Assembly (NCBI RefSeq): GCF_900066015.1
Contig: NZ_LN890655.1
Span: 992,001-1,056,000, forward strand
Direction of reading: 5' to 3'
Source of the DNA: Candidatus Promineifilum breve
GTDB lineage: Bacteria > Chloroflexota > Anaerolineae > Promineifilales > Promineifilaceae
Length of the DNA: 64,000 bases
The translations under genes and the position numbers were made by a program. Of this stretch, positions 14,856 to 22,085 are shown piece by piece. The notes below the pieces were generated by a model that saw nothing but the letters and a program-made list of their open reading frames with translations, ran no database searches and was not told where the DNA came from. The stretch's first letter is position 1. Every line of letters begins with the position of its first letter.

Positions 14856-15572
14856 TTAGCCTTCTTCCGGCGGAAAGCCGTAAGTGCTACCGCCGGGTGG
14901 TTGGGGTCGCCGCCGGACGATGCCCTGGGCCAACTCGGCCAGGATGCCACGCAATAAATCCAGCCCGACCAGCATGAGGCGGCGCTCGGCCTGGGCTTCG
15001 CTGAGACCAGGGGGCAGGGCCACCGGCCGCTGGGCGGCAACGTCGCCCGTGTCCAGCCCCTCGTCCATGTAGTGGACGGTGACGCCCGTCGGGGCCTGGT
15101 GGCGCAATTGCCAGTAGACCGGCCGCGGCCCGCGATAGGCCGGCAGCAGTGACGGGTGCAGATTGAGAAAGCCCAGGCGCGGCACGGCCAGCAGGGCGGC
15201 CGGGATACGGCGGGTGAAGCAGGCCACCACGGCCACGTCGGGGCGCAACGCGGCCAGCGCGGCCAGCGCGGCCGGGACGGCGAAGTCAGTGACGGCCAGA
15301 ACGGGCAGCCGGGCAGCCCAGGCCACGGCCAGGGTGTCGGTTGGCGACGCGCCTTCCAGAAGTAAGGTCGCGGTCGGGCGGTGCGGTTCAATGGCGGCAA
15401 GAGGCGCGGGCGCGTCCGGCAACAGGTGGGGAATGGCGGCGGCGGGGACGACAACAGCGGCCACGTCCGCGCCGTCGGCGAGCAGCCCGGCCAGGACGGC
15501 GGCCGATATCCCCACCGGCAAGCCGAAAAACAGGATGCGTAGCCCGCCGCCCGGCGCGTCCCCCACGCTCAT
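14856..15572 (-). CDS. Formyltransferase-fold protein (Fmt/PurN-like), orphan
   Basis: 238-residue protein with the formyltransferase catalytic core. NLHPSLLPAYRGPRPVYWQL near residue 134 supplies the Asn and His of the N-H-D triad. HYMDEGLDTGDV near 165 supplies the Asp. It lacks the C-terminal tRNA-binding domain of Met-tRNA formyltransferase and is short for that enzyme (about 310). It is also not adjacent to def or pur genes. It more likely formylates a sugar nucleotide or another amine using formyl-tetrahydrofolate. Start ATG at 15572; ten bases separate it from the PLD gene. Confidence 0.65.
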   Translation of the reverse strand: MSVGDAPGGGLRILFFGLPVGISAAVLAGLLADGADVAAVVVPAAAIPHLLPDAPAPLAAIEPHRPTATLLLEGASPTDTLAVAWAARLPVLAVTDFAVPAALAALAALRPDVAVVACFTRRIPAALLAVPRLGFLNLHPSLLPAYRGPRPVYWQLRHQAPTGVTVHYMDEGLDTGDVAAQRPVALPPGLSEAQAERRLMLVGLDLLRGILAELAQGIVRRRPQPPGGSTYGFPPEEG

Positions 15573-15707: not shown

Positions 15708-16022
15708 ATGACCAGAGAAACGAAAACCATCACCGTTGTGCAGTGCGTCAAGCTGGGCCAGGAGTTGCCGGCGCTGGATCGGCCGCCCTTCCCCGGCCCG
15801 CTGGGCCAACGCATCTACGACGAGATCTCCAAGTACGCCTACAGCCAATGGCAAGACCAGGCCCGCCTGTTGATCAACCACTACGGCCTCAACATGGCCG
15901 ACCCGCGTTCGCAGGAATTCCTTTTTGAACAGATGGAAGCCTTTCTGTTCGACGAGGGATCGGGCGCGGCCGTGGCCGGCGCGCCGGTGGCCGGCGGCAA
16001 GGGCGGCCCGGCGCGCAAATAG
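15708..16022 (+). CDS. Fe(2+)-trafficking protein YggX family
   Basis: 104-residue protein matching YggX throughout. It has VVQCVKLGQELPALDRPPFPGPLGQRI-type sequence near the start (Cys13), YSQWQDQARLLINHYGLNMADP in the middle, and FLFEQMEAFLF near residue 80. YggX helps Fe-S protein repair and resistance to oxidants in gamma-proteobacteria. A glycine/alanine-rich 17-residue tail is extra. YggX is best known from proteobacteria, so its presence here is notable. It is followed closely by the radical SAM selenoprotein gene, whose Fe-S cluster could benefit, though this link is only inference. Confidence 0.85.
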   Translation: MTRETKTITVVQCVKLGQELPALDRPPFPGPLGQRIYDEISKYAYSQWQDQARLLINHYGLNMADPRSQEFLFEQMEAFLFDEGSGAAVAGAPVAGGKGGPARK

Positions 16023-16032
16023 CCGCGTGACC

Positions 16033-17487
16033 ATGGTGGAAGTTCTGCTGCTTGCCTGCTATGAATTGGGCCACCAGCCGTTGAGCCTGGCCTGGCCGGC
16101 GGCCGTCTTGCGGCGGGCGGGCTTCGCCGTGCGAACCGTCGATCTGTCGGTCGAATCATTGCCGCGCGAGGCGGCGGCGCGCGCCGGCTTCGTTGGCATC
16201 GCCGCGCCCATGCACACCGCCCTGCGCCTGGGCGTGCGCGCCGCCGCCGAGGTGCGCGCCCTCAATCCGGCGGCTCATATCTGCTTTTATGGGCATTACG
16301 CCTGGCTCAATGGGGATTATTTGTTGGGGACGGGGGCTGATTCGGTGATGGGGGGAGAGGTTGAGGCGGCGTTGTTGGAACTGGTGAGAGGGATAGAAAG
16401 CGGGGTTTTGGGAAATGAGCCGGTTCCGAGCGAGGGAGCGAGAAAGATAGAAACCGGGTTTTCAAGAAAAAACCCGGTTTCGGGGGTGCATCTGGCGCGG
16501 CCGGCGTTGCCGCTGCCCGACCGAGACGGGCTGCCCGACCTGAGCCATTACGCCCGCTATCTGGCGAATGGGCGCTATAGCCTGTCCGGTTACGTCGAGG
16601 CCACGCGCGGCTGCCTGCACACCTGCCGCCATTGCCCCATCACGCCGGTCTACGGCGGACGCTTCTTCGTCGTGCCGGTCGAGACGGTCATGGCCGACGT
16701 GCGGGCGCAGGTAGCCGCCGGGGCCGAGCACATCACCTTCGGCGACCCCGATTTCCTCAATGGGCCGGGCCACGCCATGCGGCTGGCGCGCGCGCTCCAT
16801 GCCGAGTTCCCCCACCTGACGTTCGATTTCACCACCAAGGTCGAGCACATCCTGCGCCACCGGCAACTGATCCCCGAACTGCGCGCGTTGGGGGCCAGCT
16901 TCGTTGTGTCGGCCTTCGAGAGCGTGTCCGATGAGGTGCTGCGCCGGCTGGACAAGGGGCACACGCGGGCCGACATGGACGAGGCGCTGCACGTGCTGGC
17001 CGAAGCGCGGCTGCCGGTTCTGCCGACCTGGCTGCCGTTCACCCCCTGGACGACGCTGGACGATTACCTCGCCATGCTGGCCTGGATTCGCGAGCGGGGG
17101 CTGATCGCCAATGTGCCGGCGGTGCAATTGTCGGTCCGGCTGCTCGTGCCGCCCGGCAGCGCCCTGCTGGCCGAGAGCGTGCCCGGCTTCTTCGGGCCGC
17201 TGAACGCGCCCGCTTTCTCTTATGAGTGGCGGCATCCCGATCCGCGCATGGACGAACTGCAAGCCCGCGTCACGTTACTGGCCGCCAACGCGCCGGCCGA
17301 CACGCCCCACCGCGCGTTTGCCGCCGTGGAGCAACTGGCCTACACTCTGGCCGGTCGGCCGCCGCCCCAACGCGCGGCCGGCAATGGGGCCATTCGCCTG
17401 CGACCCGCCCCGCCCCGATTGACCGAAGACTGGTTCTGTTGAGCGGAGCCGACGGCCGATCAGTTTGATCGGCTCACGCTCGAATAG
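16033..17487 (+). CDS. Radical SAM selenoprotein with Cys-Sec-Ala-Glu-Pro tail (UGA at 17440-17442 read as Sec)
   Basis: 484 residues if UGA at 17440-17442 is decoded as selenocysteine (U470); ordinary calling stops at 469. An N-terminal Rossmann, B12-binding-like domain (about 1-110) precedes the radical SAM barrel. The cluster motif is C194-x3-C198-x2-C201 (GCLHTCRHCPITP). The final sense codons before TGA are W-F-C. After TGA the frame continues GCG-GAG-CCG (A-E-P) and eleven more codons to TAG 17485-17487. I recall a protein family defined by exactly this CUAEP/CCAEP tail. A SECIS-like hairpin starts at the UGA. Start ATG 16033 (or GTG 16027). The reaction is unknown; Cys-Sec suggests a redox-active pair. 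Residues about 118-150 come from an inserted palindromic element. Confidence 0.85.
16370..16490 (+). repeat. Low-GC palindromic insertion inside the radical SAM gene
   Basis: A purine-rich, lower-GC stretch sits in frame between the N-terminal domain and the SAM barrel. It ends in a perfect 13-bp inverted repeat (16450-16462 with 16469-16481, half-site GAAACCGGGTTTT, six-base loop). The translated linker (GIESGVLGNEP..IETGFSRKNPVSG) has no conserved look. It resembles a small intergenic repeat captured by the gene. Confidence 0.65.
17440..17481 (+). promoter_or_regulatory. Candidate bacterial SECIS element
   Basis: An outer stem GAGCG (17441-17445) pairs with CGCTC (17477-17481). After an internal loop, an inner 7-bp stem GCCGATC (17455-17461) pairs with GATCGGC (17467-17473). 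The apical loop AGTTT starts 20 bases after the UGA. A hairpin just 3' of UGA with a G/U apical loop is what bacterial SelB recognises. Functional assignment is inferred from structure and the CUAEP context. Confidence 0.7.
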
Positions 17488-17523
17488 TCGCCCACGGCTC
17501 CGGCCGCGGGCCGCAACCAACCT

Positions 17524-19089
17524 ATGAAACACAATACCCTGCGCTCGTTGTTTTTGCTGTGTCTGCTCCTGATCGTGGCCGTGGTGGTCGTCGCCCGCGC
17601 CGCCGCCGCCACCCGCGCCGCCGAGGCGTGGATGGGTAAGACCGACCCCGTCCTGCTGACCGAGACCGCCGGCGGGGCGTCGGCCGAGTTCCTGGTCGTG
17701 CTGGCCGATCAAGCCGACCTGAGCGGGGCCGAGCGGCTGGGCGACAAGACGGCTCGCGGCCAATACGTCTACGAGGCCATGACCACCACCGCCGCCACCG
17801 CCCAGGCCCCGCTGCGCGCCCTGCTGGATGCCCACGGCGCGTCCTACCGGGCTTATTGGGTAGTGAACATGCTCCGGGTGCGCGGCGACCGGGCGCTGCT
17901 GGCCGCGTTGGCCGGCCGCGACGACGTGCGCCACGTCTATGCGAATACGTGGCAGCGCGCCCAATTACCCACCCCGGTTAGCGCCCCCCACCCGCCGCGC
18001 GAGACCGATCTCATCGAATGGAATATCCAGATCGTCAACGCCGACGACGTGTGGGCCGCCGGCTTCACCGGCCAGGGCGCGGTCATCGGCGGCCAGGATA
18101 CCGGCTACGACTGGCAGCACCCGGCCCTACGCAACGCCTATCGCGGCTGGGACGGCAGCGCCGCTGACCACAATTACAATTGGCACGACGCCATCCACGA
18201 AGATTTGCCCCTGGGCAATCCGGGCAACGCCTGCGGCTTCAACCTGACCGAGCCGTGCGACGACGACGGCCACGGCACGCATACGATGGGCACGATGGTC
18301 GGCCGGACGCCGCAACTCGACCTGGGCATGGCCCCCGGCGCCGAGTGGATCGGCTGCCGCAACATGGAAGACGGCTGGGGCAGCCCGGCCACCTATTCCG
18401 AATGCTACGAATGGTTCATCGCCCCCTACCCGCTGGGCGGCGATCCCTTCACCGACGGCGACCCGACCCGCGCGCCCCACGTCATCAATAACTCCTGGGG
18501 TTGCCCGGCCATTGAGGGCTGCGTCGCCGCCGACATCTTGCAGCAGGTGGTGGAGAGCGTGCGCGCCGCCGGCATCGTCACCGTCCACTCGGCCGGCAAC
18601 AAGGGGCCGAACTGCGAAACCATCAACGAGCCGGCGGCCATCTATGACGCCTCGTTCACCGTCGGGGCCACGGATGATCAGAACCTGATCGCCGCCTTCA
18701 GCAGCCGCGGCCCGGTGACGGTCGACGGCAGCAACCGCATTAAGCCCGACATCGTGGCCCCCGGCGTCAACATCCACTCCAGCGTGCCGGGCGGCGACTT
18801 CGCCTTTCTCAGCGGCACGAGCATGGCCGGGCCGCACGTGGCCGGGCTGGTGGCGCTACTGATCTCGGCCGAGCCGGAACTGGCCGGGCGGGTCAACACG
18901 ATTGAAGCGCTCATCACCAACTCGGCGCTGCGGCGGACGACCAATGAAGGCTGCGGCGGCGACACGCCCACCAGCGTGCCCAACCACACCTACGGCTGGG
19001 GGCGCATCGACGCGCTGGCCGCCTACAGGCTCATTGACACCGAAGCAATCTTTTTTGACTTGTTCTTGCCGGTATTGACACCGAAATAG
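17524..19089 (+). CDS. Secreted S8 family serine peptidase (subtilase)
   Basis: 521-residue exported protease. A signal peptide (about 1-28, RSLFLLCLLLIVAVVVVARA) and a propeptide-like region (VVNMLRVRGDRALLAALAG) precede the catalytic domain. The triad is Asp in GGQDTGYDWQHP (about 191), His in DDDGHGTHTMGT (about 249) and Ser in LSGTSMAGPHVAGLVAL (about 433). The oxyanion Asn lies in HSAGNKGPN. There is no extra C-terminal domain apart from a short hydrophobic end (FFDLFLPVLTPK). It starts 36 bases after the selenoprotein's TAG. Confidence 0.92.
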   Translation: MKHNTLRSLFLLCLLLIVAVVVVARAAAATRAAEAWMGKTDPVLLTETAGGASAEFLVVLADQADLSGAERLGDKTARGQYVYEAMTTTAATAQAPLRALLDAHGASYRAYWVVNMLRVRGDRALLAALAGRDDVRHVYANTWQRAQLPTPVSAPHPPRETDLIEWNIQIVNADDVWAAGFTGQGAVIGGQDTGYDWQHPALRNAYRGWDGSAADHNYNWHDAIHEDLPLGNPGNACGFNLTEPCDDDGHGTHTMGTMVGRTPQLDLGMAPGAEWIGCRNMEDGWGSPATYSECYEWFIAPYPLGGDPFTDGDPTRAPHVINNSWGCPAIEGCVAADILQQVVESVRAAGIVTVHSAGNKGPNCETINEPAAIYDASFTVGATDDQNLIAAFSSRGPVTVDGSNRIKPDIVAPGVNIHSSVPGGDFAFLSGTSMAGPHVAGLVALLISAEPELAGRVNTIEALITNSALRRTTNEGCGGDTPTSVPNHTYGWGRIDALAAYRLIDTEAIFFDLFLPVLTPK

Positions 19090-19949: not shown

Positions 19950-20983
19950 CCAACAAGTACATCGCCATCGAAGGCGTCATCGGCGTCGGCAAGACGACGC
20001 TGGCCCGCCTGCTGCAACCGCGCTACGACGCCGCCATCCTGCTGGAAGTGGTCGAGGACAACCCGTTCCTGTCCAAGTTCTATCAGGATCGCGAGCGCTA
20101 CGCCTTCCAGACGCAGATCTTCTTCCTGCTCAGCCGCTATCACCAGCAGTACCAGGCCGTGCCGGCGGCGCTGCGGCGCGGCAATCTCATCTCCGATTAC
20201 ACTTTCGCCAAGGATGAACTATTCGCCTGGCTCAATCTGAAGGACGACGAACTGGCGATGTACGGCCGCGTCCACGCCGCGCTGGGCGAGAAGATCCCCC
20301 GCCCCGACCTCATCGTCTACCTGCGGGCCGACCACGACGTGCTCATGCGGCGCATCGCCCTGCGCGACCGGCCGTTCGAGCGCGACATGGATCCCGGCTA
20401 CATCCGCGAAGTGTCGGCGGCCTATGACGCCTGGCTGTCGCGCCTCAACGACATGCCCGTGCTGACCATCGACACCAACGACCTCGACTACCTGTCGCGC
20501 CCGGCCGACATGGAGCGCATCATCCACCTGATCGCCGATGGGGTCGCCAACGCCGCGCCCCAGCCGGCCGGGCCGGTCGATTCGCGCCTGCAAACGCTGC
20601 AACAGGGCCGCCTGGCCGCCTTCCAGCAGTTCCACCGCGAACTGGATTCGCTCAAGGGCTTCGAGGGCGATCTCTTCTTCAACTACCTCCTGCTGATGGA
20701 AGAGATAGGCGAGCTATCGACCGACCTGGTGCGGGTGTGGACGGAGAGCAAGCGCCGCCTGGTGGATGGCCGCGGCCCGGCCGAGACGCTGGAAGAGGCC
20801 ATCGAGATGAACCGGCCCGACCTGCGCAACGACCTGGCCGATCTGTTGGCCTTCATCCTCAAGCTGGCGAACTACACCGGCATCGATCTGGAGCAGGCTT
20901 ATATGGAGAAGATGCGCCTGAACCTGGGGCGCACCTGGCCCGCCGAGCGCGGCGCGGCGGAACCGGCGGGGCATGAAGGTTAG
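19946..20983 (+). CDS. Deoxynucleoside kinase fused to a MazG-like pyrophosphohydrolase domain
   Basis: 345 residues in two parts. Residues 1-205 are a deoxyadenosine/deoxyguanosine-kinase-type domain. It has the P-loop GVIGVGKT (10-17), ISDYTFAKDELFAWLNL (the family's SDY/DRS region), and LIVYLRADHDVLMRRIALRDRPFE as lid. Residues about 210-330 resemble all-alpha MazG NTP pyrophosphohydrolases: E252-E253-x2-E256 and D296-x2-D299 fit EExxE..DxxD metal ligands. The kinase makes dNMPs, while MazG domains hydrolyse (d)NTPs, so the fusion suggests nucleotide salvage with clean-up. It overlaps both neighbours (4 and 11 bases). Confidence 0.8.
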   Translation: MTNKYIAIEGVIGVGKTTLARLLQPRYDAAILLEVVEDNPFLSKFYQDRERYAFQTQIFFLLSRYHQQYQAVPAALRRGNLISDYTFAKDELFAWLNLKDDELAMYGRVHAALGEKIPRPDLIVYLRADHDVLMRRIALRDRPFERDMDPGYIREVSAAYDAWLSRLNDMPVLTIDTNDLDYLSRPADMERIIHLIADGVANAAPQPAGPVDSRLQTLQQGRLAAFQQFHRELDSLKGFEGDLFFNYLLLMEEIGELSTDLVRVWTESKRRLVDGRGPAETLEEAIEMNRPDLRNDLADLLAFILKLANYTGIDLEQAYMEKMRLNLGRTWPAERGAAEPAGHEG

Positions 20984-22085
20984 CGAGTTCGATTACGACC
21001 TGCCGCCGGCGCTCATCGCCCAGCAGCCGATGGAGCCGCGCGACGCCAGCCGCCTGCTCGTCCTCGACGGCGCAACCGGGAGCATCGACCACCGCCGCTT
21101 CCGTGACCTAGGCGACTATCTGCGGCCGGGCGACGTCATCGTCGCCAACGACACGCGGGTCATCCCCGCCCGCCTCTTCGGCCGCAAGCCGACCGGCGGA
21201 CAGGTGGAAATCCTGTTGCTGGAGCGGCTGGACGGGACGACGTGGCGGGCGCTGGTCGGCGGGCGGCGGGTGGGCGTGGGGCTGGTCATCACCCTGCTGG
21301 ATCACGCCGACGAGCCGGCCAGCGTCACAGCCACCGTCATAGCCGAGGGGGCCGAATCGTTGCGCGAACTGCGTTTCAGCGCGCCGGTCGAGACGTGGAT
21401 CGACGCCCTGGGCTATGCCCCGCTGCCGCCCTACATCCACGCCCCGTTGGCCGACGCCGAGCGCTACCAGACCATCTACGCCCGGCCGCCCGGTTCGGCC
21501 GCCGCGCCCACGGCCGGGCTGCACTTCACGCCCGAGCTGCTGCTGCAATTGCGCGAACGGGGAATATTGTTCGAGACGGTGACGCTCCACGTTGGCCTGG
21601 ACACCTTCAAGCCGGTCAGCGTGGCCGAGGTGGCCGAGCACAATATCCACACCGAGTGGGCGCGTCTGTCGGCCGAGGCCGCGCGGCGCATCAACGAGGC
21701 CCATCTGGCCGGCGGGCGCATCATCGCCGTGGGCACGACGACGGCCCGTGTGCTGGAGACGGCCGCGCTGCGTTCGGCGGGTATCGGCGGCAGCCTGCGC
21801 ACCATCAGCGCCCGCGACGCGACGGGCGAGACGAGCAACATCTGCCCCTGGAAGCCGGTGGCCGCCTTCGAGGGGCCGACCGACCTGTTCATCTACCCCG
21901 GCTATCGCTTCCGGGCGGTGGGGATGCTCATCACCAACTTCCACCTGCCGCGTTCCAGCCTGCTGATGCTGGTGGCCGCCTTCGCCGGGCGCGAAACGAT
22001 GCTGGCTGCCTATCGCGCGGCGGTGGCTGAGGGGTATCGCTTCTACTCGTTTGGCGACGCCATGCTCATCCGGCCCAATGGGTAA
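20973..22085 (+). CDS. queA: S-adenosylmethionine:tRNA ribosyltransferase-isomerase QueA
   Basis: Adds epoxycyclopentane to 7-aminomethyl-7-deazaguanine in tRNA during queuosine synthesis. The 370-residue product has FDYDLPPALIAQQPMEPRDASRLLVLD at the start, VIVANDTRVIPARLFGRK, PTAGLHFTPELL, and the C-terminal NFHLPRSSLLMLVAAFAG, all typical of QueA. No tgt or other que genes are nearby. ATG 20973 overlaps the kinase gene by 11 bases. Confidence 0.96.
   Translation: MKVSEFDYDLPPALIAQQPMEPRDASRLLVLDGATGSIDHRRFRDLGDYLRPGDVIVANDTRVIPARLFGRKPTGGQVEILLLERLDGTTWRALVGGRRVGVGLVITLLDHADEPASVTATVIAEGAESLRELRFSAPVETWIDALGYAPLPPYIHAPLADAERYQTIYARPPGSAAAPTAGLHFTPELLLQLRERGILFETVTLHVGLDTFKPVSVAEVAEHNIHTEWARLSAEAARRINEAHLAGGRIIAVGTTTARVLETAALRSAGIGGSLRTISARDATGETSNICPWKPVAAFEGPTDLFIYPGYRFRAVGMLITNFHLPRSSLLMLVAAFAGRETMLAAYRAAVAEGYRFYSFGDAMLIRPNG

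Follow-up and report, generated by a model that had tools for sequence, protein, structure and literature searches.

AprD4, a radical SAM diol dehydratase, is not known to use cobalamin, and MiaB and RimO carry a second cluster. Vicinal Cys-Sec pairs near a C-terminus and behind a variable linker resemble known redox arms. The family NF040546 ('CUAEP/CCAEP-tail radical SAM (seleno)protein') is catalogued under a name that gives no function; 'CUAEP' occurred in none of the papers searched and matches to 'CCAEP' were unrelated, within a partial coverage of the literature, and NF040546 is unnamed in a 2026 selenoproteome review. ArsL, the radical SAM enzyme of arsinothricin biosynthesis, has been proposed to form a C-As bond by attaching an amino-acid group derived from SAM to As(III) (PMC8552651). 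No arsenic-binding role for the ArsL tail was found in the literature accessible to us. Here, a window of 64,000 nucleotides from Candidatus Promineifilum breve (contig NZ_LN890655.1, positions 992,001 to 1,056,000) was analysed, in which the gene at 16033-17487 is a new member of NF040546. All coordinates below are those of the window except where stated.

The reading frame and its in-frame UGA

The following features were assigned within the gene:

16033 to 17487, plus strand: gene for a CUAEP-tail radical SAM protein, a predicted selenoprotein of 484 amino acids with TGA read as Sec (NF040546; AlphaFold2 pLDDT 90)
16612 to 16635, plus strand: CxxxCxxC radical SAM cluster motif (C194, C198, C201), invariant among the aligned relatives (PF04055, 53.4 bits by Pfam)
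17437 to 17451, plus strand: codons TGT TGA GCG GAG CCG of the predicted C-U-A-E-P tail (residues 469-473), invariant in the alignment
17440 to 17442, plus strand: putative Sec UGA codon, marked by TGA/Cys codon swaps among relatives and label changes on the tree
17440 to 17482, plus strand: putative SECIS-type bacterial hairpin with apical CAGTTT, assigned from the folding z score and from stem statistics against a synonymous-codon null

Translation with TGA as Sec gave a product ending in ..RLTEDWFCUAEPTADQFDRLTLE, which matched NF040546 at 727.1 bits over residues 4-479 (cut-off 500). An earlier note on this DNA had read W-F-C, TGA at 17440-17442, GCG-GAG-CCG and 14 sense codons before TAG at 17485-17487, and each of these was recovered exactly on translation; the NF040546 match likewise bears out its statement that a Cys-Sec-Ala-Glu-Pro tail marks a radical SAM family. 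The note's statement that normal gene calling truncates the gene also held, the ordinary ORF listing ending at 17442. In an alignment of 49 sequences (the selenoprotein and 48 relatives), the invariant positions were the CxxxCxxC cysteines, E465, W467, C469, C/U470, A471, E472 and P473, whereas the stretch ahead of the tail varied in length and sequence. C84 was kept in about 90% of the aligned relatives, and few further Cys residues were conserved besides the tail pair.

A perfect palindrome, GAAACCGGGTTTTCAAGAAAAAACCCGGTTTC, was observed in frame within the gene at 16450-16481, in a variable loop (residues ~131-151) that is poorly ordered in the predicted model. Copies of its core were found at 15 genomic sites and at none in a reversed control, so the selenoprotein gene has tolerated a dispersed repeat. 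An ORF resembling QueA (tRNA ribosyltransferase-isomerase), a SAM user, was seen 3.5 kb downstream at 20973-22085, by eye only.

At the position of the UGA, TGA was found in 79 and TGC or TGT in 21 of the 100 related loci in which the motif is present. Thermogemmatispora, which is in culture, has the Cys type. About 10 changes between Sec and Cys were needed on a tree of 109 proteins, 8 of them forced by well-supported branches. Relatives carry CCAEP or CUAEP here rather than stopping at the codon, and conservation continues 3′ of it, as A-E-P is invariant in the 49-sequence alignment. The stem-loop described in the earlier note as beginning at the TGA was found on folding: the 48 nt from the TGA reached -23.2 kcal/mol (z = -4.28), none of 200 dinucleotide shuffles was as stable, and a long hairpin starts at the TGA. 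Across the family, the RNA 3′ of the codon had a mean z of -1.42 in UGA members (n = 81) versus +0.15 in Cys members (n = 18; p = 4e-7). Stems were further compared with a null in which the protein sequence was held fixed and synonymous codons were redrawn from the same gene. The mean stem was 6.05 bp in UGA relatives versus 2.35 bp (sd 0.18) expected, and a stem of at least 5 bp was present in 95% of 80 UGA relatives versus 14% under the null, although these statistics overstate the sample size because related sequences are not independent. In Cys members the mean stem was 2.2 bp and the hairpin was mostly lost. Pairs in the stem change on both sides: C-G, T-A or G-C occupies one position, and the following one has G-C or A-T. 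An Rfam search of 17300-17600 returned chance matches only, so the evidence for a SECIS element comes from comparison and not from a library model.

The machinery for Sec was found elsewhere in the Candidatus Promineifilum breve genome, comprising a tRNA-Sec with UCA anticodon, selA, selB and selD, and the selD is itself a Sec gene that reads ..SCAGU.. through UGA. As the earlier note had said, none of selA, selB, selC or tRNA-Sec is in the window, whose four tRNAs are Ser, Ser, Arg and Gly. A full selA was present in 32 of the 34 Chloroflexota genomes with a UGA-type enzyme, the two exceptions being incomplete genomes; this co-occurrence is weak evidence for Sec, since 243 of 301 Chloroflexota genomes have selA anyway. 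Taken with the exchange of TGA and Cys codons at one column, the changes on the tree, the invariant A-E-P and the hairpin above its null, the presence of the machinery argues that the UGA at 17440-17442 is very probably read as selenocysteine, through the hairpin and the genome's own SelA, SelB, SelD and tRNA-Sec. It is highly improbable that the UGA is an ordinary stop followed by an untranslated frame: standard gene calling returns this result and nothing beyond it speaks in its favour, whereas the conserved A-E-P past the UGA, the Cys that relatives encode in its place, a selected hairpin and the Sec machinery all stand against it.

Genes linked to the enzyme

Two genes beside the selenoprotein gene were assigned as follows:

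15708 to 16022, plus strand: gene for a YggX-type Fe(II)-trafficking protein (PF04362, 102.9 bits; NF003817, 110.5 bits against a cut-off of 74)
14856 to 15572, minus strand: divergent formyltransferase-like gene (PF00551, 89.7 bits; fmt, 94 bits against a cut-off of 201.5)

The YggX gene is the genome's sole PF04362 gene; it lies directly upstream of the selenoprotein gene, separated from its start by 10 nt, and encodes the C-terminus ..GGKGGPARK. The formyltransferase-like protein is without the Fmt C-terminal domain and keeps N-x-H-P and D-T-G; from its score against the fmt cut-off, it is not the tRNA enzyme.

The earlier note had left these linked genes out of its account, and they emerged from neighbourhood and co-occurrence analysis. 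Because raw clustering of neighbourhood ORFs was dominated by antisense shadow ORFs in the GC-rich DNA, only Pfam-confirmed families were used. Near the enzyme, YggX was found at 52 of 110 loci and an Nfu/NifU-domain protein at 38, with both at none and neither at 20; the Nfu-type loci include Rokubacteria, KSB1, Planctomycetota, Bacteroidota and Pseudomonadota. An ATP-grasp protein (PF13535 with the L-amino-acid ligase domain PF18603) was a neighbour at 73 of the 110 loci and a formyltransferase-like protein at 47. DUF169 (PF02596) was also seen to recur beside the radical SAM gene, at 11 loci.

The enzyme was present in 75 of 301 Chloroflexota genomes. The ligase accompanied it in 73 of these and the strong YggX type in 48; conversely, 48 of the 50 Chloroflexota genomes with the strong YggX type had the enzyme. 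In the window genome the ligase is unlinked (C1:3949306-3950520 in genome coordinates, about 2.9 Mb from the selenoprotein), and by eye it was seen to adjoin a lipoyl-domain E2-type gene. In 23 genomes the ligase was present and the enzyme absent; in the examples read, the ligase adjoined Nfu (two loci) or YggX and a formyltransferase (one locus). Of 96 genomes with the ligase, 41 had Nfu within 2.5 kb, 25 had YggX within 2.5 kb, 27 had either elsewhere, and 3, all incomplete, had neither. Since ligase and carrier genes pair in genomes that lack the enzyme, the core of the module seems to be the ligase and the iron carrier, which the radical enzyme often joins, and the enzyme may be an add-on and not the source of the ligase's substrate. 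On inspection of Chloroflexota loci, the ligase was likewise seen beside NfuA or YggX even without the enzyme, making the module wider than the enzyme. Neighbourhood and co-occurrence thus establish linkage of the enzyme, ligase, iron carrier and often formyltransferase, and from this linkage we infer joint function in one pathway. No description of a ligase/iron-carrier module or of its relation to Lys tails was found in the literature searched, of which coverage was partial.

C-termini of the carriers were compared within and outside the module. Nfu proteins from genomes with the ligase had a Lys tail in 18 of 18 cases (e.g., NPYYQPSKK, PAKG, PAKKAS), and 13 of these 18 proteins came from genomes that lack the radical enzyme; in Nfu the tail goes with the ligase. 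A Rokubacteria Nfu ends NPYYTPGKA. Among Nfu-domain proteins outside the module, most of them other Nfu subtypes, Lys was present in the last three residues of 1 of 20. Because of this mix of subtypes, two proteins provide the close comparison: E. coli NfuA, with the ending GEHSYY, and the NfuA of one genome without the ligase (G083). The latter is of the same type as the Lys-tailed NfuA of the 18 loci and was observed to end NPYYQHGH. Module YggX proteins end PRKK, ARK, PQQKA or PRAKG. Outside the module, one of 18 PF04362 proteins had a Lys tail, though this set belongs to a distant subtype; E. coli YggX ends DKK though without the module, and two other YggX proteins end PANG and PKE. The link to a Lys tail is thus strong in the case of Nfu, whereas for YggX it is no more than suggestive.

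Predicted structure and possible roles of the Cys-Sec arm

AlphaFold2 with the family alignment gave a model with pLDDT 90 and pTM 0.90. A less confident linker at 451-460 leads into residues 461-470, whose pLDDT averaged about 86, and on this basis the C-terminal arm is predicted to dock. By sequence, the enzyme has a single [4Fe-4S] site of the CxxxCxxC type, a Rossmann-like domain at its N-terminus and the C-terminal arm with Cys469-Sec470. The nearest solved folds were AprD4 (6fd2; Z 27.4) and OxsB, MgmA and TsrM (Z 24-26), then MiaB and RimO. A B12-binding domain was matched by Pfam at 29.4, which is sub-threshold (cut-off 32.1).

Among families, the second-best match was NF040542 (ArsL), at 285.2 bits, which did not reach its cut-off of 450 and lay far above all remaining families. 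Plasmid-borne ArsL/RCCLKC proteins, taken for comparison from plasmid records, showed 29-36% identity with the selenoprotein over about 85% of the protein. When three ArsL proteins, 31-35% identical to it, were aligned with it, their final R-C-C-L-K-C put C-C in the columns of C469-U470; as the very end of an alignment can force such a column match, it indicates positional equivalence and not homology of the tails. Judged by sequence, the CUAEP selenoprotein is related to ArsL, and its predicted Cys-Sec pair sits where ArsL has Cys-Cys. Neither arsM, arsQ nor other arsenic or arsinothricin genes were found beside the selenoprotein in the window, where its neighbours are YggX, the formyltransferase-like gene and a subtilase (Pfam), or among the recurrent neighbours of the family. 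An arsenic pathway in Candidatus Promineifilum breve was not adopted because it has no ars neighbours. In the ArsL-type clusters of Alicyclobacillus and Priestia, an ATP-grasp gene was seen beside the radical SAM gene. ATP-grasp genes in such clusters suggest that amino acids of the arsinothricin type may become incorporated into peptides.

Our preferred reading, offered tentatively and at a little short of an even chance, is that a Sec enzyme related to ArsL acts in one pathway with the ligase and a Lys-tailed carrier, its Cys-Sec arm presenting a soft atom to the SAM radical. The arm would fold back over the active site and present a soft atom X (metal, metalloid or chalcogen) to the SAM-made radical, by analogy with ArsL and on the assumption that ArsL's own tail Cys pair holds arsenic. 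An amino-acid unit would thereby acquire a C-X bond and would then be coupled by the ligase to a partner, for which the Lys tail of YggX or Nfu is one possibility. Given the relation to ArsL and the genes nearby, the Cys-Sec pair could hold a soft atom or metal instead of performing the redox step at which the earlier note had guessed. Against the soft atom stand the score of 285 versus 450, the lack of arsenic genes beside the family, the absence of ArsL's third tail Cys and the chance that the C-C columns are an alignment end effect. Against a single pathway stand the pairing of ligase and carrier genes without the enzyme, the distance of the ligase in the window genome, the ending of E. coli YggX in KK without the module and the nature of the ligases: those linked to ArsL and to CUAEP share a superfamily but only about 25% identity, and ligases of this kind are common. 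It is possible, though doubtful, that YggX and Nfu serve as carriers in a modification or biosynthetic system so far undescribed, with the ligase adding an amino-acid unit to the Lys tail and the radical enzyme and formyltransferase modifying that unit; two unrelated iron proteins would then have evolved the same tail as a ligase substrate.

Three other roles for the tail were weighed. The Cys-Sec pair could be a redox relay, as in thioredoxin reductase, with the arm carrying electrons or resolving a selenenylsulphide or disulphide during turnover and holding no substrate atom. The vicinal pair near the C-terminus behind a variable linker, the repeated exchange of Sec and Cys as in redox selenoproteins, and the naming of the YggX neighbour's family as 'oxidative damage protection protein' are all consistent with such a relay. 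However, no reductase or thioredoxin-type gene was recognised among the conserved neighbours, the pair itself is no more invariant than A-E-P and W in an arm that is predicted to dock, and the nearest relative, ArsL, has a Cys-rich tail and a proposed C-As chemistry; we regard the relay as rather unlikely. Binding of iron or an auxiliary Fe-S cluster delivered by YggX or Nfu, as a sulphur source or site in the manner of LipA with NfuA, is unlikely. The occurrence of YggX or Nfu, never both, at 90 of 110 loci across several phyla and a fold close to MiaB and RimO point toward a cluster, but C84 and the tail pair leave few conserved Cys, and the carriers stay beside the ligase where the enzyme is absent, so that their partner may be the ligase. 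A cobalamin-dependent enzyme, e.g., a methylase, with a secondary role for the tail would account for the B12 enzymes OxsB, MgmA and TsrM among the top folds and for the weak B12-binding match; with that match below its cut-off and AprD4, which is not known to use cobalamin, as the best fold, this role is quite improbable.

The ArsL relation, hairpin and module together turn a radical SAM selenoprotein family without an assigned function into a testable pathway, which spans Chloroflexota, Rokubacteria, Acidobacteria and others; the linkage with the ligase and Lys-tailed carriers hints that this bacterial pathway is an undescribed one. Were Lys-tailed YggX and Nfu its substrates, iron-sulphur carrier proteins would gain a new role, with implications for the function of YggX.

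Comparison with known systems

Compared with the NF040546 family, the protein encoded at 16033-17487 is a full-length match with the C-U-A-E-P tail and radical SAM motif in common. Nothing essential differs, and the window copy has the dispersed-palindrome insertion in frame in its variable loop. AprD4 (6fd2) is the best structural match, with 410 residues aligned at an rmsd of 3.7 and 19% identity, but the match stops at model residue 444, short of the Cys-Sec tail. The linked ATP-grasp protein aligns with the L-amino-acid ligase BL00235 (3vot) at 136.9 bits over 390 residues and shares PF13535 and PF18603; unlike BL00235, it sits beside YggX or Nfu. ArsL resembles the selenoprotein in having a Cys pair at the equivalent tail position, and its clusters in Bacillota also hold an ATP-grasp gene, as does the selenoprotein module. 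The tails themselves differ: between RCCLKC and CUAEP, the predicted Sec replaces the second Cys, and ArsL's third tail Cys is missing.
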